Of a stretch of DNA of 38,566 bases, positions 8,287 through 38,566 are shown in pieces; position 1 is the stretch's first letter, and each line of letters begins with the position of its first letter. Position numbers and translations under genes: made by a program. The stretch is from a virus. The stretch spans positions 1-38,566 of IMG/VR virus record IMGVR_UViG_3300019889_000006, one strand, 5' to 3'. The notes beneath the pieces were generated by a model that had not been told where the DNA came from, searched no databases, and saw nothing but the letters and a program-made list of their open reading frames with translations.

Positions 8287-9777
8287 ATGACAGTAACGCA
8301 TGATGAAGCATTAAAATTATTAGGGGATCAGGATTGGCGTCTTAGGAATCTTTATAAAATCAAAGATAAACAAGGGATGATTGTTGACTTTTCTCCTAAT
8401 TGGGCTCAAATAGAATTAAAAAAACCGCATTATTTAAATATTATTTTAAAGGCTAGACAACTTGGAATTACTACTTATCACGCTATATTATTTCTCGATA
8501 CTTGTCTTTTTAATCACAACGTTAATTGCGCAATAGTAGCTGATAGTAAACCGATTGCTAGAGAGATCTTCATAGACAAGGTTAAATTTGCTTATGACAA
8601 CTTACCTCAATTCGTTAGAGATATGTGTCCAGCGCATAGGGATAACGTTCATGAAATGCGTTTCGGAAATGGTTCCGTATTTCGTGTTGCTACTTCTCTA
8701 AGAGGTGGAACCTTACAGCTTTTACATATTACTGAGTTCGCAAAGATTTGCCAGGAGAATCCATCAAAAGCTAATGAAATTGTCTCAGGTGCGCTTAATG
8801 CCGTACAAGCAGGTCAGTTTGTTTGCATTGAATCAACAGCTAGGGGAAGAGAAGGACACTTCTTTAATTTATGTAAAGAAGCACAAGCATTACAAGATGC
8901 TAGCAAAGAATTAGGTAAGCTGGATTGGAAACTTTGGTTCTTTCCATGGTGGAGACATCCAGATTATGTTATAGATTCAAAAAATGTCTTGATAAGTAAA
9001 GACAATGACAAGTATTTTGTTGAATTAGAAAGTAAAGGAATTATTTTAAATACTGATCAGAAAGCATGGTATCAAAAAAAGTCATTGACTATGGGCGAAT
9101 ATATGAAAAGGGAATTTCCTTCTACGCCTGAAGAAGCTTTCGAATCAGCTAATGAAGGGTTTTATTTTGCGAAACAAATTTCTCAAGCTAGACATGATAA
9201 AAGAATTTGCTACTTACCTTATGACGAACACGCGAAAACTTATAGTAGCTGGGATATTGGTATTGGGGATTCATGCGCTATATGGGTATGGCAGCTGGTT
9301 GGTAAAGAAATTCACTGCATCGATTATTATGAGAATTCCGATGAAGCTTTATCACATTATGTTAGATGGCTTAAGACGAAGCCTTACATTTTTGAAAAAC
9401 ACTTTCTACCGCATGATGCAGCCGCTAGGGAAAAAGGAAGTGGAAAATCCTTCGCCGATATTGCAAGAGAACAAGGACTTAAAGTTGACATCGTTCCAAG
9501 ACAGTCAAATGAAATCTTCGGAATCGAATGTTTAAGAAATATGCTTCCAAGATTCTTCTTTGACTATTCTAAATGCGAAAAAGGAATAAAAGCCATAGAG
9601 AACTTTCGTAAAGAGTGGAATGAGAAGCTTGGTTGCTATCGTGAGAGAAGTTATCACGACTGGGCATCTCATGGTGCTAAAGCTCTTATTTATGGAGCTG
9701 AATCATTACAGCGACTGATTGGTGGTTCAGGAATGTCTGCTGAAGAGTGGAATAGAATGAGAAAAGAATGGTTATAG
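8287..9777 (+). CDS. terL: Terminase large subunit
   Basis: 496 residues, normal length. The ATPase domain shows the terminase-type Walker A KARQLGITT at residues 55-63 and a Walker B/coupling motif HITEF near 152. The C-terminal RNase-H-like nuclease carries WDIG near 325, PHDAAAREKG near 377 and the terminal YHDWASHGAKAL, supplying the metal-binding acidic residues. It packages DNA into proheads through the portal encoded next. The ribosome site is weak. Codon use is richer in GC than in the accessory genes, typical of the late core. Confidence 0.95.
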   Translation: MTVTHDEALKLLGDQDWRLRNLYKIKDKQGMIVDFSPNWAQIELKKPHYLNIILKARQLGITTYHAILFLDTCLFNHNVNCAIVADSKPIAREIFIDKVKFAYDNLPQFVRDMCPAHRDNVHEMRFGNGSVFRVATSLRGGTLQLLHITEFAKICQENPSKANEIVSGALNAVQAGQFVCIESTARGREGHFFNLCKEAQALQDASKELGKLDWKLWFFPWWRHPDYVIDSKNVLISKDNDKYFVELESKGIILNTDQKAWYQKKSLTMGEYMKREFPSTPEEAFESANEGFYFAKQISQARHDKRICYLPYDEHAKTYSSWDIGIGDSCAIWVWQLVGKEIHCIDYYENSDEALSHYVRWLKTKPYIFEKHFLPHDAAAREKGSGKSFADIAREQGLKVDIVPRQSNEIFGIECLRNMLPRFFFDYSKCEKGIKAIENFRKEWNEKLGCYRERSYHDWASHGAKALIYGAESLQRLIGGSGMSAEEWNRMRKEWL

Positions 9778-9850: not shown

Positions 9851-11911
9851 ATGTTTGCAGCTCAATATGACGGAAGCAGTGCTTATACATTAGATCACAA
9901 TAATAAAGTGTTTCAATGGCAACAATTTTTCTTTGATGCTTATCGAACATGGGGTGTTTTTTATGCACAAGCTTACAGAGATTTACGTGCATATGCGGGA
10001 GACAATTGGACGAATCTTGAAAAAACCAAACTTGAAAGACAGAATCGCATGGTTCTCGAACTCAACAAAATTAGAAGAGTTGTCAACCTTTATTCAGGCT
10101 ACGAACGTGAGAACAGAACGCAAACAGTCACGGCGCCCGTTGAAGGTTCCGATGAAATTACTGCTGATCTTTTTTCAAACGTTATGTACTACGTATACGA
10201 CAAAGGAAATGCAGACTATATATTCTCAGAAGCCTTTGAACATGCACTTAAAACAGGACTTTCCATTGTAGGAATCTACATGGATTATTCCAAAGACAAA
10301 GTGAATGGAGATATCAAATTCTATTGGAAACCATTCAATGCTCTTATGCTCGATCCTTACTTTACGAAAAGAGATCTTTCAGATTGCGATCAAGCATCTA
10401 CTAGAGATTTACTCTCAAAAGAACAAGTTAAAGCAATGCTCCCATGGATTGATCCAGAAGAGATTGATAGAATCCCCACAGGAATAAGAGATAATAAATA
10501 TCAATATTTAGGTATCTATCGTCAGTATAACTCTACATACATCGCGCATAATTTAGTTACTTATGATCAATATTGGAAACGTATTACTAAAGTTCAGAAG
10601 TATCTAGTTGATGAAGATACAGGTGTTTCAGAAGAGTGGTTTGGAACTCGCGCTGAAGAGAAAGAACTAAAAGAAACATTACAATATACACCACAAGTCA
10701 AATTAATTACTGCACATAAGAGAAGTGTCGAATTGAACATCATTGTTGGTGGTCAACTTTTATACACAGGTCCTGATCCTACCGGATTAGATAATTTTCC
10801 TTTCATGCCAATCATTCTTTATCATGAACCACTAATAGATACATATGAACTTAAGATTCAAGGAATTGTCCGTTCAATCAGGGATGCTCAACGTCAATAC
10901 AATAGAAGACACAGTCAGATTATCGACCTCATGGAGTCAATTATCAATACGGGCTGGATTACTAAGAACGGCGCAGTCCTTGATCCAACTATGCTCATGC
11001 AAGCTGGTCAGGGTAGACAGATTGTGGTCAATGATGGGTATGATGTCAATGCGGACGTTAAAGAGATATCACCACCGAATATCCCACCTGGATATCTTCA
11101 ATATCAGGACATCATCGATAAAAACATTATGGAGATCCCTGGAGCCTCTGATGAGTTACTCGGCTTATCTTCAACAGGCGACAGTCAAGTATCTGGAAAG
11201 TTAGCAGAAGTCAGATCTTCTAATGGACTTAAGGGAAATCGAGGCATATTTGATAATCTGGAGCAGACCAAGAAATATGTTGGAATGCTTGTACTAGAAG
11301 CAATTCAAAAGAATTACCAACCTGGAAAAATTCAAAGAATAACAAATAAAGAACCTACTGAAGAATTCTTTTCAGGTCAATTTGGCGAATATGACTGCGC
11401 GATTAAACAAGCAGTTAAAACCGCAACACAAAGAGAGGCATATTATTATCAACTGCTTCAGTTAGTAGCAATGGGTGCTCCAATTCCATGGGAAGATATT
11501 ATGGAAGCAGCTCCATTACAAGGTAAGACAGAACTCATTGAGAAAATGGCTCAAGCATCAGAACAGCAACAAGCTCAACAACAGAAAATGGATGAAGCTG
11601 AGCAAATTCAAAAAGCTCTTGAAATGTCACAGATTGATCAAAACACTGCATTAGCTGAAGAGCGTAGAGCAAGAGTCTTGGCAGATATTGGCTTGGCTCG
11701 AGAAAGATCTAGCGAAAGCGAGCAAAATTATGCAAAGGCACTTCTTGATAACGCTAAAACAGTTAAAGAAATCCAAGACATGGATCGAAAACGTTTACTT
11801 GATGTTATGGCTTTAGCAGCCGACATTAGTAAAACTCAAGAACAGAAGTTTGAAAGGCAACTTACAACTGATGCTCAGAGAATTGAAAGCCCTATAAATA
11901 CAGGAGTTTAA
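9851..11911 (+). CDS. Portal protein, P22-like
   Basis: 686 residues, close to the P22 portal (about 725). The N-terminal region RMVLELNKIRRVVNLYSGYE, the early acidic patch and the SDSQVSGKL-like core with GASDELLGLSSTGDSQVSG (about 435) fit the P22 portal family. The last 130 residues are a long Gln/Glu/Ala-rich coiled coil matching the portal barrel. Twelve copies form the DNA channel at the head vertex. AGGA upstream supports the start. It is followed after one base by the next gene. Confidence 0.9.
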   Translation: MFAAQYDGSSAYTLDHNNKVFQWQQFFFDAYRTWGVFYAQAYRDLRAYAGDNWTNLEKTKLERQNRMVLELNKIRRVVNLYSGYERENRTQTVTAPVEGSDEITADLFSNVMYYVYDKGNADYIFSEAFEHALKTGLSIVGIYMDYSKDKVNGDIKFYWKPFNALMLDPYFTKRDLSDCDQASTRDLLSKEQVKAMLPWIDPEEIDRIPTGIRDNKYQYLGIYRQYNSTYIAHNLVTYDQYWKRITKVQKYLVDEDTGVSEEWFGTRAEEKELKETLQYTPQVKLITAHKRSVELNIIVGGQLLYTGPDPTGLDNFPFMPIILYHEPLIDTYELKIQGIVRSIRDAQRQYNRRHSQIIDLMESIINTGWITKNGAVLDPTMLMQAGQGRQIVVNDGYDVNADVKEISPPNIPPGYLQYQDIIDKNIMEIPGASDELLGLSSTGDSQVSGKLAEVRSSNGLKGNRGIFDNLEQTKKYVGMLVLEAIQKNYQPGKIQRITNKEPTEEFFSGQFGEYDCAIKQAVKTATQREAYYYQLLQLVAMGAPIPWEDIMEAAPLQGKTELIEKMAQASEQQQAQQQKMDEAEQIQKALEMSQIDQNTALAEERRARVLADIGLARERSSESEQNYAKALLDNAKTVKEIQDMDRKRLLDVMALAADISKTQEQKFERQLTTDAQRIESPINTGV

Positions 11912-13276: not shown

Positions 13277-13543
13277 ATGGCTAATGGAACAACAACAACA
13301 GTTCAAGTAGACCCAGAAGTCAACTTGTTCTTTGATAATATACTCCTAGATAGGCACCAGCCGTATTACGTGCATGGTTACTTTGCTCAGGAACGTAGAA
13401 TACCTCAGAAGAATAGTAAGACAGCTATCTTCCGTCGTTTTGATAATTTGGCTGATGCATTAACACCTTTAACCGAAGGAGTTACACCAGCATCCGAACA
13501 AGTTACTAAGTTTGATATTACGGCTGTTGTCAGCCAATACGGT
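13277..13543 (+). CDS. Major capsid protein, exon 1
   Basis: First 89 codons of an N4-gp56-type major capsid protein, ending VVSQYG at 13541-13543. The frame continues only nine codons into the intron before a stop, so unspliced RNA gives a truncated 97-residue product. Splicing after 13543 joins it in frame to 14287, restoring the family-typical QYG-K-VVELSDD sequence and a 314-residue protein. Strong ribosome site (CAGGAGATTAAA). Confidence 0.9.
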
Positions 13544-14286
13544 AGCTCAGAATGGCTGTTAGCAGCTTAAACTTTGCCGTATTAAAACTTTTGGTGATTA
13601 CTTGGAAACCCTAAACGTAGTATACTAAAACTGGAAACAACAGTGAGGTAAACTATGCATGGCAACCAGAGGCAAGCGGTTCTATGGGCCTATCTTGCAG
13701 GACTAATAGATGGAGAAGGATCTTTCGTGATACAGAAAACAAGTGTTGAAAAAATAGCTAAGAGCTCTAGGAGTAAAACACCTAAATATCTTGCTTATTT
13801 CTGTATAGGAATGGTTGATAAATCTCCTCTTGATTTGATTCAAGAAACTATTAGTGCAGGAAAAGTCTATGAAGAACGTGTTCCTGATAGACGATCTATA
13901 TGGAGAATAAGATTTGCTGGAAGGCTTAAACTTATACCTTTTGTAGAACAACTTCTTCCTTACTTAATAGTAAAGAAGAGACAAGCTAAATTGATCTTGG
14001 ATTTTTGTAGAAACTGGGAAAAACCTGGTAGAAAAGAACATGGTTATACTGCTTGTGTATCGGAGAAGGAACTACAACGCAGAGAAGAGGCATATCTTAA
14101 GATGCGCAAGTTCAATGCAGTTGGAGCAGCCGCAACGACTGAGTCCAGAAGCTGCCGAGAGGCGGAAGCGACAGTCTGAACTTATAGGAAACTATAAGAG
14201 GGAGATCCGAAGAGTTCCCCCCGCAACTAAAAAATTTTACTATAGTTATCAAGTAAATATTTTAGTTGTCATAAAGTAACAGAGAG
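13544..14286 (+). mobile_element. Group I self-splicing intron with homing endonuclease
   Basis: A 743-base intron interrupts the capsid gene. P1: exon AATACGGT (13536-13543) pairs with guide GCCGTATT (13576-13583), giving the required U-G at the 5' splice site. P10: ACTTT (13571-13575) pairs with AAAGT at the start of exon 2 (14287-14291). The last intron base is G. A P7-like GACT/AGTC pair lies at 14137-14140 and 14173-14176. P9 is CTTATAG-GAAA-CTATAAG (14181-14198). All this fits a group I ribozyme. The endonuclease gene sits inside and runs into the core. Confidence 0.9.
13655..14179 (+). CDS. LAGLIDADG homing endonuclease (intron-encoded)
   Basis: 174 residues with one LAGLIDGEGSF motif (residues 14-24), so it should act as a homodimer. 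The motif packs the dimer interface and its acidic residues cut DNA. The enzyme would cleave intronless capsid genes near the insertion site to spread the intron. The ATG has GAGG six bases upstream. The C-terminal 25 or so codons overlap the ribozyme core (P6-P7), and the TGA stop falls just after the P7 strand. Capsid genes are a classic conserved homing target. Confidence 0.93.
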   Translation: MHGNQRQAVLWAYLAGLIDGEGSFVIQKTSVEKIAKSSRSKTPKYLAYFCIGMVDKSPLDLIQETISAGKVYEERVPDRRSIWRIRFAGRLKLIPFVEQLLPYLIVKKRQAKLILDFCRNWEKPGRKEHGYTACVSEKELQRREEAYLKMRKFNAVGAAATTESRSCREAEATV

Positions 14287-14964
14287 AAAGTAGTTGAATT
14301 AAGCGATGACGTTATCATCACAGTGCAAGATCAGACAGCTAATGAAGTGGCTGATATGTTAGCACAAAACATGGCATCTACTTACGACAAAATCGTTCGT
14401 AACATGCTTGTAGCTACTGCTGCGCAGATTGACTGTCTAAATGGAGTTAATGGAAATGCGATAACAGAAGTAACAACTACTGACTTAGAGTTAGCTGTAG
14501 ATTACTTAGAAGGTAATAATGGTAAGAAGCTTTCTCCTAATCAAGAAGGTACAAATGCATTTGGAACAGCTCCTGTTTGGGCTTCATATTGGATGATCAT
14601 ATCCACAGACCTACGTAGTGACTTTAAGAATCTTTCTAACTTCTTGCCAACAGCTGACTATCCACGTCAACAGTCAGTTCTAGAAGCAGAGTTTGGTTCT
14701 TGTGATGAAGTGCGTTTAGTAAAAACATCAGAAGCATACAAAGACGTTTCTGTGGTACCTGCTGTTTATTATAATCTACTATTTGCTGCTAATGCTTATG
14801 GACGTATTACTATTGATGATCAATCAATGGAAATGATTATTAAGCCACTAGGAGCTGGGCAAGATCCATTAAATCAGCGTCAAACTATGGGTTGGAAGGG
14901 TCGTCTAGGATCTGTAATCCTTGATGATAGCTGGTGCGTAGCATTAAGAAGCACTAAAGGTTAA
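14287..14964 (+). CDS. Major capsid protein, exon 2
   Basis: Codons 90-314 of the N4-gp56-type capsid protein, beginning KVVELSDDVIITVQDQTANE and including the ...STYDKIVRNML segment typical of the family. The first in-frame stop upstream is at 14272, so the exon cannot start on its own from a good site. The GTG at 14323 has no ribosome site and would omit the conserved VVELSDD. It must be joined to 13277-13543. Confidence 0.9.
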   Translation, partial: KVVELSDDVIITVQDQTANEVADMLAQNMASTYDKIVRNMLVATAAQIDCLNGVNGNAITEVTTTDLELAVDYLEGNNGKKLSPNQEGTNAFGTAPVWASYWMIISTDLRSDFKNLSNFLPTADYPRQQSVLEAEFGSCDEVRLVKTSEAYKDVSVVPAVYYNLLFAANAYGRITIDDQSMEMIIKPLGAGQDPLNQRQTMGWKGRLGSVILDDSWCVALRSTKG

Positions 14965-17521: not shown

Positions 17522-19956
17522 TGACATATTCTCCTTATCTAATAGCTAATTATTCTACAGGTTTAGATAAACGATTACAACCATGGTTAATACCAGATGA
17601 TGCGCAAGAGCAATTATTTGATGGTTTTGTTTATCGTGGAGTAATGTCTAAAAGAGAAGGATATAATTATTTTGCTATTGGTGAAAGAGGTGGAGCTCCA
17701 TATCGGGAATCAAGAATAATGCATACGCCTCCTGCCTCTCCAATGGTTGGAGTTATTGATGGCGTTAATCAAACATTTATTCTTGCAACTGCAAGTCAAA
17801 TTGTCAGAGGAAGTGTTTTAGTAGTTGGTTCTGATCCATCTCAAGTTTTAGTAGATAATGGATTAGGTGGATTTACAGGCCCTGGAACTGGAAGTATAAA
17901 TTATATAACAGGTTTTGTAACTGTGACATTTAATGCACCACCTGTATTAGGTTCATCAGTAACTCTAGGTTATAGTTTAATGCCTGGCAATCCAGTTATG
18001 ATGATTGCTAACTTTGTCACTGCTTCTAATATTAAAGAATTAATTGTTGCAGATACAAGATTTGTTAATAGATATAACCCAACACTTAATATTCTTGAAG
18101 ATATTAGTCCCACTACTCCGTATTCAGGAACTAAATTCGATTTCTTCACATGGGTTAATTATGAAAGTGCAACTAGTGTTCCAAGATTATTATTTTCTAA
18201 TAATGTCGATCCAATACAACAATATGATGGTACAGTCATAACTGATTATGTATATGACATGTTAACTGCTACCCCTATACCTGTAGCAGTTACTACTCTT
18301 ACTTGTTCCTGGATGACGCAAATGAAAGATCGTTTGATTCTTCTTAGAACCAATGAAAATGGAGTGATTTATCCAAAAAGAATTCGAATTTCTGGAACAG
18401 GTGTAAATTGTGATGACTTTAGAACTTCTGCAACAGGTGCTGGTTTTATTGATATTCCAGATGGAACATGGATTCAAGGAGCATCATTTAATAGAGATGA
18501 CTTATTAATATTTACTGAATCTTCAATATGGATATTAAAATATACAGGTAATGATACGACTCCATTTGTTTTAGATAAAATTGATGATACTAGAGGATCA
18601 GACGCTACATTTGGAGTAATTACATATCTCAATAGAACATCTGCCGCTTCCAGACGAGGTTTAATTATTTCTGATGGATATAGAATTGAAAGACAAGATG
18701 AAGCTTTACCTGATTTTTCTTTTAATGAAGTTGATGGTGTAAATTTTCCTCTCTGTTTTGCAGGTTCTGTTGATGCTGATAGAGATCATTATCTAATATA
18801 TCCTCCTGCTGGATCAGATATCTCTAAGAGAATTTTAACTACTAATTATGATGAAGATAATTATTCGATTTATCGATTGCCTCTTTCTTGTATGGGAACC
18901 TATATTACTGCATTTACAATCACATGGAATGATTTGTTAATCTATCCAAATTGGGATTCTTTTGCAGCTGCTTATGGAAATTGGAATTCTTTTTCCTATA
19001 ATTCAGGTGTTCCTTTCAGTTTAGGAGGAGGACATAATGGTGAGATTTGGCGATTATCTGTAACAGAGTCAGAAGATAATCCTGTTAGAATTTATAACAT
19101 TACAGTAATTGATAATGTTACAATTGAAGTCACAACTGATTGGAATAATTATAGTATTAATTCTGATGATCCAACTATGGGTGCTGATTATATCTATCTG
19201 ACTGCAATTGTTGGAATGGATCAAATAAATAATCAACAATTCCCAATAGTTTCTATAATTAATAATAATATATTCAGGTTAGACGTTTCAAGTGCTGTAG
19301 TTCCAGCCAGTAGTTTTACTACATATTCTAGTGGTGGAAGAGCACAAAGAGTTATTCCGTTTACTGCACTATTTAAGAAATTTAATCCTTTTATAGATCA
19401 AGATAGAAAAGTTAGATGTGGTTGGCTTTACATGTATGTTGACTCAACAGGAACATCTTTACAAAGAAATATTCTTATTCAAGATATATCTCAATCTAAC
19501 CCAGGTATCGTAACAACTACTGTAAATCATAACCTTACTACTGAAGATCAAGTTAACTTCTTTGATGTAGGTGGTATGTCTATACTTAATGGAACATTTG
19601 CTTTTGTCACAGTTTTAACTGAAACAACCTTTTCTTTAGATGGTATTGATACTGGTTTATTTCCAGCTTATACATCTGGAGGTTTTATTGGTGTAGATGA
19701 CCCAGCTAAGATGAGTATAGATATCATTACTAATGATGTTGATCATAAAACTCAGTTAAATAATTTATCTCCTGACCCTTATCAAGGAAATATGACTAAT
19801 ATGACTTTTGAAGATGGTAGTAAGAAATGGTATAAAGTTTTCATTAATCAAACAGGTAAATTTGTTCAATTTCGATTGAAAAATGTACAAGCTGGAGCAA
19901 AGATTAATATACAAGCAACAATGCCGGGATTTGCACCTGTTGGGAGATTAATCTAA
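17521..19956 (+). CDS. Tail hub / packaged-DNA stabilisation-like protein
   Basis: 811 residues, the largest product. The start SPYLIANYSTGLDKRLQPWL and a long beta-rich body resemble P22 gp10-type stabilisation proteins but with insertions. One is near 70-160 (PMVGVIDGVNQTFILATASQ, repeated turns). Two FCCH-like domains lie near 510-590 and 645-715 (PGIVTTTVNHNLTTEDQV, ILNGTFAFVTVLTETTFSL). It likely forms the tail hub that closes the portal. The 16919 and 19956 genes overlap its ends by one base. Confidence 0.75.
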   Translation: MTYSPYLIANYSTGLDKRLQPWLIPDDAQEQLFDGFVYRGVMSKREGYNYFAIGERGGAPYRESRIMHTPPASPMVGVIDGVNQTFILATASQIVRGSVLVVGSDPSQVLVDNGLGGFTGPGTGSINYITGFVTVTFNAPPVLGSSVTLGYSLMPGNPVMMIANFVTASNIKELIVADTRFVNRYNPTLNILEDISPTTPYSGTKFDFFTWVNYESATSVPRLLFSNNVDPIQQYDGTVITDYVYDMLTATPIPVAVTTLTCSWMTQMKDRLILLRTNENGVIYPKRIRISGTGVNCDDFRTSATGAGFIDIPDGTWIQGASFNRDDLLIFTESSIWILKYTGNDTTPFVLDKIDDTRGSDATFGVITYLNRTSAASRRGLIISDGYRIERQDEALPDFSFNEVDGVNFPLCFAGSVDADRDHYLIYPPAGSDISKRILTTNYDEDNYSIYRLPLSCMGTYITAFTITWNDLLIYPNWDSFAAAYGNWNSFSYNSGVPFSLGGGHNGEIWRLSVTESEDNPVRIYNITVIDNVTIEVTTDWNNYSINSDDPTMGADYIYLTAIVGMDQINNQQFPIVSIINNNIFRLDVSSAVVPASSFTTYSSGGRAQRVIPFTALFKKFNPFIDQDRKVRCGWLYMYVDSTGTSLQRNILIQDISQSNPGIVTTTVNHNLTTEDQVNFFDVGGMSILNGTFAFVTVLTETTFSLDGIDTGLFPAYTSGGFIGVDDPAKMSIDIITNDVDHKTQLNNLSPDPYQGNMTNMTFEDGSKKWYKVFINQTGKFVQFRLKNVQAGAKINIQATMPGFAPVGRLI

Positions 19957-20249
19957 TGCCATCATTAATCAATAATTTTAACTGGGGTTCATCCCTTAAA
20001 AATAATAATCCTGAATTAACTAGACAACTTTCTGAAGCTTATACTGATACTGCTAATGTAGTTAATACAAAGATATCAAAATATTTTACTAATGGAGTTC
20101 AAAAACCTCATGTAGATCCTCCAGCAAGTAGTGATTTTAATATCAATTTTGAAATTGGAGATGTATTCGTAAGAACTGATACTAATAGTGCTTGGATGAT
20201 GACTAGTAGAACTACTTCAACTGATGTGATATGGACATTAATAACTTAA
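19956..20249 (+). CDS. Small tail-associated protein
   Basis: 97 residues. The pattern TDTANVVNTKISKYFTNG, then IGDVFVRTDTNSAWMMTSRT, is like a conserved small protein in P22-like tail operons, with a helical first half and a beta second half that could trimerise on a fibre. It overlaps the preceding stop. Confidence 0.6.
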   Translation: MPSLINNFNWGSSLKNNNPELTRQLSEAYTDTANVVNTKISKYFTNGVQKPHVDPPASSDFNINFEIGDVFVRTDTNSAWMMTSRTTSTDVIWTLIT

Positions 20250-20267
20250 TTAATACTTATAAAATTC

Positions 20268-20288
20268 AATGTAAAGCGGATTTACATT
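20268..20288 (+). promoter_or_regulatory. 21-bp dyad, copy A, 10 nt before ATG
   Basis: Arms AATGTAAA and TTTACATT around centre GCGGA. The whole 21 bp recur on the opposite strand at 28407-28427. In both places exactly ten bases separate the dyad from the ATG and contain a purine-rich ribosome site. It could be an operator for a dimeric regulator or an RNA hairpin controlling translation. Confidence 0.6.
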
Positions 20289-20298
20289 AGGAGTAAAT

Positions 20299-21000
20299 AT
20301 GGCAGTAAATTTTAGTGCAGGACTTGGAAATGCAGCTTCAGGAGCTATTTCTGGTGCAAGCTTAGGATCAATAATTCCAGGAGTTGGAACAGCAGTTGGA
20401 GCTGGAGTTGGTGGTTTAATAGGGGGAATTGGGGGATTATTTGGCAGTAAGAAGAAAAAAAAGCCAAAAAAAATGAGTACTTTTGATCCTCAACAACAAA
20501 AAGTTTATGATCAACTTATAAGTGGTCTTAGAGGAAAAGGTTCTTCAGCTGATTTATATAATTTTGATGCTCAAGGTTATAATGATATGTTTGATCAAAA
20601 CACTGCAAGACCAGCATATAGAAATTTCCAAGAGAATATTATTCCACAAATTACAGGGCAATTTAGACAAGGTAATCTAATGAATAGCTCATATACTGGA
20701 GAAGCTTTAGCAAGACAGGGTAGAGACGTTCAAGAGAACCTAGATGCACTTAGATCAGCTAATATTTTTCAAGGTCAACAGCAGGCAAATCAGAACCGAT
20801 TAAGCGGTATGCAGAATGCTTTAGGTATGAATACTTTTGATTATAATCAACCTACAGCTCAAACACCTAATGTTATAGATCAAATTTTAGGCTCAGCTGG
20901 GCCAGCAGCAGGACAATGGTTTTCAGATTTCTTAAATAAAAGAAAGACTTCTTCTCCTACATCACCTGAATTCCCAACAGCATCTCTGTTTAACAGATAA
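20299..21000 (+). CDS. Ejection/pilot-like protein with glycine zipper
   Basis: 233 residues. Residues about 5-50 are a Gly/Ala-rich, GxxxG-type membrane-active stretch (IPGVGTAVGAGVGGLIGG) followed by KKKKKPKK. The rest is Gln/Asn-rich and helical. Such proteins are ejected with the DNA and help form the trans-envelope channel, as P22 gp7 or microvirus pilot proteins do. The gene is headed by the 21-bp dyad and an AGGAG site. Confidence 0.7.
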   Translation: MAVNFSAGLGNAASGAISGASLGSIIPGVGTAVGAGVGGLIGGIGGLFGSKKKKKPKKMSTFDPQQQKVYDQLISGLRGKGSSADLYNFDAQGYNDMFDQNTARPAYRNFQENIIPQITGQFRQGNLMNSSYTGEALARQGRDVQENLDALRSANIFQGQQQANQNRLSGMQNALGMNTFDYNQPTAQTPNVIDQILGSAGPAAGQWFSDFLNKRKTSSPTSPEFPTASLFNR

Positions 21001-28010: not shown

Positions 28011-28158
28011 GAATAACCCCTCTTTGTTTTTTAAAATCTTCCATCACTTCTTTAAGAACTTCTTTTTTTTCTACAGCTGTTAGGCTGTTTTTTTGGAATA
28101 TCTTGTTTAACCAAGATACTTTTTTTGCTTTTTCTAACTGTTTCGGGTCGTTTTCCAT
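27997..28158 (-). CDS. Small basic helical protein
   Basis: 53 residues, starting MENDPKQLEKAKKVSWLNKI, strongly charged. Strong ribosome site (TATAGGAGATA). It ends inside the next gene. No family recognised. Confidence 0.65.
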   Translation of the reverse strand: MENDPKQLEKAKKVSWLNKIFQKNSLTAVEKKEVLKEVMEDFKKQRGVIHGKS

Positions 28159-28212
28159 TATCTCCTATAAGTGTAATTTCTTCTTCAGTAAGTAAATTTA
28201 TTACAAAATCTT

Positions 28213-28344
28213 CTATCTCTTCTTGCTCTTTCCTGCTTTGCTGTAGGCTATCGCAGCTGCTTGATTCACTGGTTTCCCTGCGCGAATTTCCGTTGCTATA
28301 TTTTGAGATATCACTTTTTTCGATTTTCCTGTTTTTAGGGGCAT
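28213..28344 (-). CDS. Small conserved phage protein (MPLKxGKSKK type)
   Basis: 43 residues: [20 protein letters not shown], then [20 protein letters not shown]. This is the pattern of a very common small basic phage/plasmid protein of unknown function. Good ribosome site (AAAGGAATT). A longer frame on the same strand (28052-28396) overlaps it but reads as low-complexity Ser/Lys/Arg sequence and is rejected. Confidence 0.8.
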
Positions 28345-28406
28345 AATTCCTTTCCTCATATTTATTCATGTATTTTTGACACTTCTTTGAATGCATAAAT
28401 TTCCTT

Positions 28407-28427
28407 AATGTAAATCCGCTTTACATT
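28407..28427 (-). promoter_or_regulatory. 21-bp dyad, copy B, 10 nt before ATG
   Basis: Identical, on the minus strand, to the dyad at 20268-20288, again followed by ten bases with AAGGA and then an ATG (28396). It lies upstream of the small genes 28344-27843 and overlaps the stop codon of 28421. The frame opened at 28396 is doubtful, so a leader peptide or a shared control point for the small genes is likely. Confidence 0.6.
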
Positions 28428-28666
28428 TGTTTTCTTTTCCAAGATAAAATATTGTCACTTCTTTTAATATTGCATCCATCCCAGTTTTGTCCAGTAGACC
28501 AACCATGACAAATATCTTTACCTTCGATTTTAAGAAACACTAAATCATAATCTTCAGGTAAATATTTACTTGCATCAGCCCATCCTTCTTTATCATAGAT
28601 AACATCTCTATAAAAAAATGATGGTGCATTATTTTTTAATCTTGTTAATCCAACTTTTTTAATCAT
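28421..28666 (-). CDS. DUF551-like small protein (fourth copy, divergent)
   Basis: 81 residues. After an N-terminal extension (MIKKVGLTRLKNNAPSFFYR), the core GWADASKYLPEDYDLVFLKI ... HGWSTGQNWDG ... NILSWKRK follows the DUF551 layout with the usual HWMPLP ending degraded. Start overlaps the lipoprotein stop as ATGA. Function unknown. Confidence 0.65.
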   Translation of the reverse strand: MIKKVGLTRLKNNAPSFFYRDVIYDKEGWADASKYLPEDYDLVFLKIEGKDICHGWSTGQNWDGCNIKRSDNILSWKRKQM

Positions 28667-31738: not shown

Positions 31739-31798
31739 AATTATAAATTCACATAAGGATAACACAATTATAAATTCACATAAGGATAACACAATTAT
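31739..31798 (+). repeat. 27-bp tandem repeat containing duplicated ribosome site
   Basis: Two exact 27-bp units (31739-31765, 31766-31792) plus six bases of a third. Each unit carries AAGGATAACAC. The second stands correctly before the ATG at 31797; the first would precede ATA instead. A recent duplication of the translation-start region. Confidence 0.85.
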
Positions 31799-32352: not shown

Positions 32353-33238
32353 TCCTTCTCCCCGTTTTACTGGTTTATTTATTCCTGTGGAAGTACTTAA
32401 TCATCCTGAATTAACACTTTTAGAGCAAATGCTTTTATCTTGGGTAGATGCTCTTTATTCAGAAGCTAAAGGAGGATGTTATGCAAGTAATGAATATTTT
32501 GCCACTAAGTTAAAGGTAAAAGAAAATACTATTGCTAAAGCATTAACTTCTCTTCGTCAAAAAAAACTTATTGAAGATGTTTCGTTTGATGGAAGACATA
32601 GAATTATTCGAGCAAAAATTGGATCTTATGTAGAAAAATGTCAATCCAACTCTGCATTGGATTTAAATCCAATAGGGGTTGGATTTAAATCCAATGCAGA
32701 GTTGGATGAAAATCCAAAGCCCACATATATAAGAGATCAAAGTATAGATCAAAGTATAGATACTCCTCCTATACCTCCTCAAAAAAATCCCGTTATCCCC
32801 AAAGAAGAAGCTATCGCTTCTGAGGAGATTTTAAATTCTTCTTCAGTTGAAAAGAAAAAACGCATAAAAACTCCTTCTGAATTTTCCTCCAAAGTCAAAG
32901 ATCTCGCCGAAAAAATAGTAAACTCCTTAGTGCGAAAAAAACCAAATTACATTCCACCTCGTAATTTCTCAGATTTTCTAACGCATGTTGACTATCTGCT
33001 TCGATTAGACAATCGAGATCCTCAACTAGTAATAGACGTCTTTAACTGGGCATTAGCAGATTCTTTTTGGGCTGATAAAATGTACAAACCTAATCCAGCT
33101 GAATATCTTCGAAAACAATTCGATCAACTTGAAATGAAAATGAATGCAAAACCTCCCAAAAATACTAATGAAATTGATCGAAGAATGAGACATAAAGATG
33201 GAAGTTTACTCGATGGTTCTAAGGAGTTTGAGTTTTAA
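32345..33238 (+). CDS. Replication initiator, winged-helix with DnaD-like C-terminus
   Basis: 297 residues, GTG start with a perfect AAAGGAGG site. N-terminal HTH_36-like winged helix (about 5-95: GLFIPVEVLNHPELTLLEQM, YASNEYFATKLKVKENTI). A linker (about 98-150) is encoded by DNA with strong repeats, then a C-terminal domain (about 180-280). Followed directly by a DnaC-like loader, the arrangement of lambda O/P-type modules, so it should bind an origin inside its own gene and recruit the loader. Confidence 0.85.
   Translation: MSNPSPRFTGLFIPVEVLNHPELTLLEQMLLSWVDALYSEAKGGCYASNEYFATKLKVKENTIAKALTSLRQKKLIEDVSFDGRHRIIRAKIGSYVEKCQSNSALDLNPIGVGFKSNAELDENPKPTYIRDQSIDQSIDTPPIPPQKNPVIPKEEAIASEEILNSSSVEKKKRIKTPSEFSSKVKDLAEKIVNSLVRKKPNYIPPRNFSDFLTHVDYLLRLDNRDPQLVIDVFNWALADSFWADKMYKPNPAEYLRKQFDQLEMKMNAKPPKNTNEIDRRMRHKDGSLLDGSKEFEF
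32643..32717. other. Putative replication origin: iteron-like inverted repeat
   Basis: Two 29-bp arms (32644-32672, 32679-32707) form a perfect inverted repeat with a 6-base centre. Each arm holds the 16-bp palindrome TTGGATTTAAATCCAA (32657-32672, 32679-32694). Half-sites AATCCAA or TTGGAT flank it (32643-32649, 32702-32707, 32711-32717). It lies inside the initiator gene, as in lambda. AT-rich tandem repeats follow. Confidence 0.7.
32735..32761. repeat. 12-bp tandem repeats next to the putative origin
   Basis: GATCAAAGTATA occurs twice in tandem (32735-32758) followed by GAT, coding for DQSIDQSID. AT-rich and immediately downstream of the iterons, it could be the unwinding element. Confidence 0.6.
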
Positions 33239-37973: not shown

Positions 37974-38389
37974 CATAGACCATTATGCGTACATGCGCAA
38001 TATGGTTTCATAGTACACTAATCATAATACACACTCACACATGTATGTAGATCATTAGTAGCAAGAGCATATAACTCTACATAGTGTAATACAACCAGCT
38101 GGATGGTTACGTAACTCTTGGTTACTATAGTCTTAGGGTCCCATCTAAACAATTCCAAACGAAAAAGAAGAAGAGGGGTAGTGACCTTAAGTAGTACCGG
38201 TACTATGTTCTTATTTATCCCTGCTCCGTTTCACATTTAACTTACTTTTCTAAAAAATTTACATATTATATTGTGGTGATTATGTATATGGGATAACACA
38301 TAGAATTTTATAACTTACTATGAAATATATAACTTAAACCCCCAACTATGCTAACTCATCTTTTATAAAAAAATTTACTAGTAATAAAA
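37974..38389. other. Intergenic region after terminase-small-like gene
   Basis: About 415 bases without a convincing gene. It contains a TGCG/CGCA hairpin near 37984, a 14-bp palindrome TAGTACCGGTACTA (38192-38205), a GGGTCCCATCTAAACA string (38136-38151) like 386-400, and promoter-like repeat copy 3. A packaging site near the small terminase gene is possible. Confidence 0.5.
38245..38297 (+). promoter_or_regulatory. Promoter-like repeat, copy 3
   Basis: Third copy, with TTGTGG, 17 nt, TAACAC. Similarity to copy 2 extends upstream to about 38222. It lies about 95 bases before the junction-spanning gene at 38390. Confidence 0.5.
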
Positions 38390-38566
38390 ATGAATAAAAT
38401 TCTTGAAGATTATCTTTGGTCAGAAATATCAAATCCTTCAGAAGAAGAAATTTGGAAAAGTGAATATAAAAGATCCCCAAGAGAAGTTATAAAAGAAATG
38501 ATTGATAGAGGATGGATTAATTCTCCTAAACAAGGTTACTCAACTTTAAAGAAATGGTTGAAGAAA
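38390..38566 (+). CDS. Junction-spanning small protein, N-terminal part
   Basis: The ATG at 38390 opens a frame that runs off the window end and continues at base 2 to the TAA at 182-184. The joined protein is 77 residues, starts MNKILEDYLWSE and is rich in Lys and Trp. A possible motif is SPKQGYSTLKKWLKKG at about residues 45-60. It has no Cys cluster or membrane segment, and I do not recognise the family. It is the first gene downstream of the third promoter-like repeat (38245-38297), so it is probably an early gene. Confidence 0.75.
   Translation, partial: MNKILEDYLWSEISNPSEEEIWKSEYKRSPREVIKEMIDRGWINSPKQGYSTLKKWLKK
38440..38566. repeat. Terminal direct repeat, right copy (circle overlap)
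   Basis: Exact copy of bases 1-127. It shows that the genome is complete. The unique length is about 38,439 bases. Confidence 0.95.

Follow-up and report, generated by a model that had tools for sequence, protein, structure and literature searches.

The window, the whole 38,566-nucleotide stretch of DNA analysed here, is a 38.6-kb phage genome with 32% GC, which encodes a large terminase (terL, 8287–9777, + strand), a P22-type portal protein (9851–11911, + strand), an interrupted major head gene, Erf, an exonuclease, an O-like initiator, a DnaC-like loader, RusA and a serine recombinase. Neither Rfam families nor tRNAs were found in the window, and no named phage matched the region at the DNA level. 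The portal, which defines the phage clade and provides the host link, is at most about 23% identical to those of named phages, whereas relatives encoded in 9 of 192 Chlamydiota genomes reach 36–37% at best. Since the portal relatives are closer in Chlamydiota genomes than in named phages, and since the site described below is present, the sequence points to Chlamydiota as the likely host phylum, with an uncultured chlamydia as the probable host.

Two copies of a 21-base dyad, AATGTAAAGCGGATTTACATT, lie on opposite strands of this genome. Copy 1 (20268–20288, + strand) is located between the stop codon of a small 97-a.a. gene (19956–20249, + strand), a neighbour kept in relatives, and the ribosome site of a 233-a.a. 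gene (20299–21000, + strand), the first of the presumed ejection-protein genes. Copy 2, with the same 21 bases (28407–28427, − strand), precedes a 114-a.a. ORF of no known family (28052–28396, − strand), and its ATGTAA forms the stop codon (…CAA ATG TAA) of the 81-a.a. ORF ahead of it (28421–28666, − strand), which thus terminates inside the dyad. The ATGs at 20299 (+) and 28396 (−) begin ten bases past copies 1 and 2, respectively, exactly as the earlier note had described, and the stretch common to both copies is 22 bp. A chance origin of the repeat had been judged unlikely, and the shuffled window bears this out, yielding 0.01 matches at ≤3 mismatches as compared with four in the real window (both sites on both strands). 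No third copy was detected in the window within three mismatches of the family consensus, and the window's own terL lacks the dyad. The symmetry exceeds the 8-bp arms, as the C and G within the centre are paired too, and the full family reads ATGTAAAGCNGCTTTACAT. The proposal that copy 1 heads the ejection-protein genes is reasonable from its position, but no family search gives these genes that identity; the proposal that copy 2 heads a cluster of tiny genes is true for ORF 28396–28052 but overlooks the stop codon that the dyad supplies to the preceding ORF.

Several other features were observed in the window. Its ends are identical over 127 bases (1–127 and 38440–38566), a common assembler k-mer length, and therefore the genome is probably circular or permuted rather than bounded by true terminal repeats. 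Three 45-base repeats, 78–80% related, lie near the joined ends (224–268, 437–481 and 38252–38296). The major head gene is apparently interrupted, with its first part at 13277–13570, a LAGLIDADG-like ORF at 13655–14179 and the main match at 14323–14964; the interruption is likely an intron or homing insertion, and no Rfam match at the gathering threshold was found within 13277–14964. A perfect 29-base inverted repeat with a 6-base loop (32644–32707), within the O-like replication gene, is possibly a replication origin, and 27 bases are perfectly duplicated in tandem at 31739–31792, ahead of ORF 31797.

A site family on Chlamydiota chromosomes and phages

A short-sequence search returned only chance-level matches. 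Among 84,980 bacterial and archaeal genomes, the exact 19-mer ATGTAAAGCGGATTTACAT occurred in 14 stretches, 13 of which are from Chlamydiota. We read the general form of the palindrome from whole chlamydial genomes, and the pattern TGTAAAGCNGCTTTACA at ≤1 mismatch occurred in 116 of 141 Chlamydiota genomes, with a median of two copies and a maximum of 57; a reversed-pattern control was near 0. In the Bacteroidota control, 15 of 138 genomes had the site, each with a mismatch and none exact. One base matrix is common to the host and phage sites. The dyad in the window is therefore a copy of a Chlamydiota chromosomal palindrome and is not phage-specific: the earlier idea of a protein-site-like element holds in that the element is real and under selection, but it is not the phage's own. 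In the open-access literature, we found no published description of the site, nor any parS for chlamydiae or tailed phages of Chlamydiota that bear such a site.

In IMG/VR, the exact 21-mer, the 19-mer and the host-type palindrome were found in 27, 77 and 115 stretches, respectively, largely 34–42 kb contigs or fragments, and most site-bearing contigs examined encode proteins homologous to the portal, head or terminase of the window. In 80 phage loci (957 kb) picked by portal similarity, independently of the site, there were 19 copies at ≤2 mismatches versus 0 for the reversed pattern. The site is thus carried by a large clade of 34–42 kb P22-portal-type phages that includes the window, some of them with a single copy only. 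The earlier note had suggested looking for the dyad before the same genes in related phages. Among relatives with portals 70–93% identical, 12 phages including the window had a readable junction between the homologue of ORF 19956 and the gene after it, and the site was present in eight (seven relatives and the window), with nearly fixed arms and the centres GCGGA, GCAGC or GCCGC. In the other four, the stop codon runs directly into the ribosome site, indicating that the ten-base spacing to the ATG reflects packing against the ribosome site. The place at 28407 fared differently, as no copy was seen beside homologues of its neighbours in other phages. Overall, 20 of 72 phage copies lie ahead of a start codon, which mostly comes 9–14 bases after the 19-mer core.

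On the chromosomes, the site clusters around the origin. In the complete genome G028, cumulative GC skew places the origin at about 1.14–1.17 Mb and the terminus at 0.64 Mb, and a scan at ≤2 mismatches, covering 1.15 of 1.17 Mb, found only four sites, at 1,108,515, 1,146,277, 10,648 and 23,064. These sites span 88 kb and lie at −65, −27, +11 and +23 kb relative to the skew-defined origin, a spacing that is repeated in related genomes. G022 has 24 copies and G151 has 57, and their densest contigs (G022:C31 and G151:C30, respectively) show homology to the origin region of G028. In several genomes, a site copy touches the 3′ end of parA. Nine of 30 sampled loci of UPF0137 (the CT583/Pgp6 family) had a copy within about 130 bp upstream of UPF0137, with just one copy elsewhere in 111 kb, and the Chlamydiaceae-type genome examined has the site 3.9 kb away from UPF0137, not adjacent to it.

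Selection on the DNA of the site within terL

In another phage subclade, the exact dyad lies within terL as codons for NVKRIYI (contigs L002, L006, L007, L009, L011, L015, L018 and L025). Our first reading of these copies, as chance coding matches, was overturned by a peptide-level scan. A scan that allowed any codon spelling of the terminase peptide NVKRIYIDP identified 26 contigs, 10 with the exact 21-mer and 16 differing from it by 3–7 bases; none of the 26 was at 1–2 mismatches. The flanks of the exact copies are 62–74% identical, and two pairs are duplicates. Under independent codon choice, the probability of 8 exact copies among 21 distinct cases is about 2e-10, with codon frequencies that include the exact ones and with shared ancestry ignored, an effect that is reduced, though not abolished, by the divergence of the flanks. 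The DNA sequence of the site itself is thus under selection, spelled by synonymous codons in the middle of a gene, which speaks against both a leader hairpin and an operator at a promoter.

Candidate reader proteins

ParB, our first choice as the binder, is missing from the motif-rich genomes: it is encoded in 60 of 141 Chlamydiota genomes, none of which has at least seven sites. Four genomes with 24–57 palindrome copies (G022, G125, G151 and G157) lack a chlamydial-type chromosomal ParB. This distribution makes UPF0137 a better candidate than ParB. UPF0137 was found in 135 of 141 Chlamydiota genomes and in 0 of 14 control genomes, and being nearly universal, its presence has little power as evidence; 21 genomes have UPF0137 and no site, and one (G138) has 24 sites and no UPF0137 match. 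Pgp6, the plasmid relative of UPF0137, is essential for plasmid maintenance with its function unknown, and the chlamydial plasmids have ParA (Pgp5) and no ParB (PMC7846284). From the distributions of the two proteins, the maintenance role of Pgp6 and the plasmids with ParA and without ParB, UPF0137 is probably the site-binding partner of ParA and is our best candidate.

No homology of UPF0137 to any DNA-binding family was detected. A ParB-like helix-turn-helix suspected by eye was unsupported by profile comparison or by a structure-database sequence search, and an AlphaFold model built from two sequences was poor (pLDDT 56). In the phage contigs, ParA, ParB and UPF0137 were not detectable, nor were UPF0137 relatives found in viral contigs; accordingly, the host would supply the binder.

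A proposed centromere-like role and its alternatives

The site resembles the parS of chromosomal ParABS in its arrangement: both are short palindromes, free in position and orientation, with few copies clustered near the origin and one in or near the par locus, on the parA side here. It differs in sequence and in having an odd centre, and ParB is missing from the motif-rich genomes, which speaks against ParB as the reader. The canonical 16-bp parS, TGTTTCACGTGAAACA, had no exact match in the 141 Chlamydiota genomes and single 1-mismatch matches in six. Given the sequence and the adverse ParB distribution, we do not class the site as a canonical parS. Noc binding sites (NBS), matS and SlmA sites are likewise short palindromes that occur across part of a chromosome, but their sequences are different, and the Chlamydiota site is origin-clustered and occurs on phages too. 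Plasmid prophages such as P1, N15 and those of mycobacteriophages carry centromere-like sites plus their own par genes. The clade of the window also has a phage-borne site, but here par genes were not found and the site is that of the host. The chlamydial plasmid pair Pgp5 (ParA)/Pgp6 belongs to the same two families as chromosomal CT582/CT583, but the plasmid-sized contigs with UPF0137 in the genomes listed showed no copy of the chromosomal palindrome.

We consider it somewhat probable that the dyad is an origin-proximal, centromere-like Chlamydiota site, probably served by ParA and UPF0137, which is carried by phages without par genes. This reading is based on the observed family membership, origin clustering, parA/UPF0137 neighbourhood, selection on DNA and presence in a phage clade; the identity of the binder and a gain for the phage through segregation are what we infer. 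In the host, a DNA-binding protein, probably UPF0137 encoded beside ParA (CT582), would bind the palindrome, and ParA would move the bound origin region. The same host protein would bind phage DNA bearing one to several copies of the site and could position, compact or partition the circular genome, either as a plasmid-like prophage or during infection, such that the segregation or origin-organising machinery of the host may act on it. As the dyad copies a host site beside a chromosome-sorting gene, the phage probably borrows the DNA-handling machinery of the host, and we favour segregation as the purpose over compaction, SMC loading, replication control or a self mark.

More tentatively, UPF0137 might represent a Chlamydiota-specific class of centromere-binding proteins that replaces ParB alongside ParA, with the palindrome as its centromere, and the tailed phage clade might hijack segregation via this host centromere, even where it is written synonymously into terL. 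A candidate centromere is thereby named for a phylum in which we found no canonical parS, and UPF0137/Pgp6, known as a plasmid-maintenance protein, gains a candidate role. The short DNA mark ties a tailed phage clade to Chlamydiota hosts, and if the centromere reading is true, these viruses exploit a host segregation site without partition genes.

Among the alternatives, the palindrome might serve as parS for chlamydial chromosomal ParB (CT688), whose specificity would have changed. A low copy number and a grouping around the origin are usual for parS, and chlamydial ParB deviates from the ParB/Noc consensus at the DNA-contact positions 172, where K replaces S, and 204, where K replaces R, and has Y at 179; we regard this reading as doubtful, however, given the distribution of ParB and the odd 17-bp spacing as compared with the 16 bp of parS. 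Somewhat more doubtful is another chromosome-organisation or self-recognition site, for SMC loading, replication control or as a self mark sparing the phage from defence. Phages mimic host marks, and clustering around the origin and as many as 57 copies would suit such a site, but the recurrent copy at the parA–UPF0137 junction is left unexplained.

Changes in one arm of the site are hardly ever matched in the other (48 one-sided versus 1 two-sided) and the pre-start copies occur in both orientations (sense strand GCGGA in 12, TCCGC in eight), which fits recognition of a DNA site by a host protein and fits neither an RNA hairpin nor an operator at a promoter for a phage protein. The earlier note had proposed that an operator might link the two gene sets of the window. 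This is disfavoured, because many junction copies leave no promoter room between the stop codon and the ribosome site, the positions differ between phage lineages, and the place at 28407 is unmatched elsewhere; moreover, a phage-repressor operator would be phage-restricted and located at phage promoters, and the site is host-wide with copies inside terL. An operator of a host regulator, perhaps for self-regulation of UPF0137, whose phage copies put phage genes under host control, would accord with the copies just ahead of UPF0137 and with the phage copies preceding start codons. It is improbable in view of the clustering around the origin, the terL copies and the tight in-operon junctions. The published consensus sequences of Waddlia Euo, HrcA and PhoB (PMC4989314) did not match the site.

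The other earlier proposal, an RNA leader hairpin bound by a phage or host protein to control translation, is very improbable: both window copies are placed ahead of ribosome sites and each folds into an 8-bp hairpin (−6.5 and −5.4 kcal/mol), but the uncompensated arms, the two orientations, the terL copies and the chromosomal copies at places unrelated to starts all stand against it. In some phages, the dyads occur as closely spaced or overlapping pairs (L061, 4848–4900; L079, 243–277).
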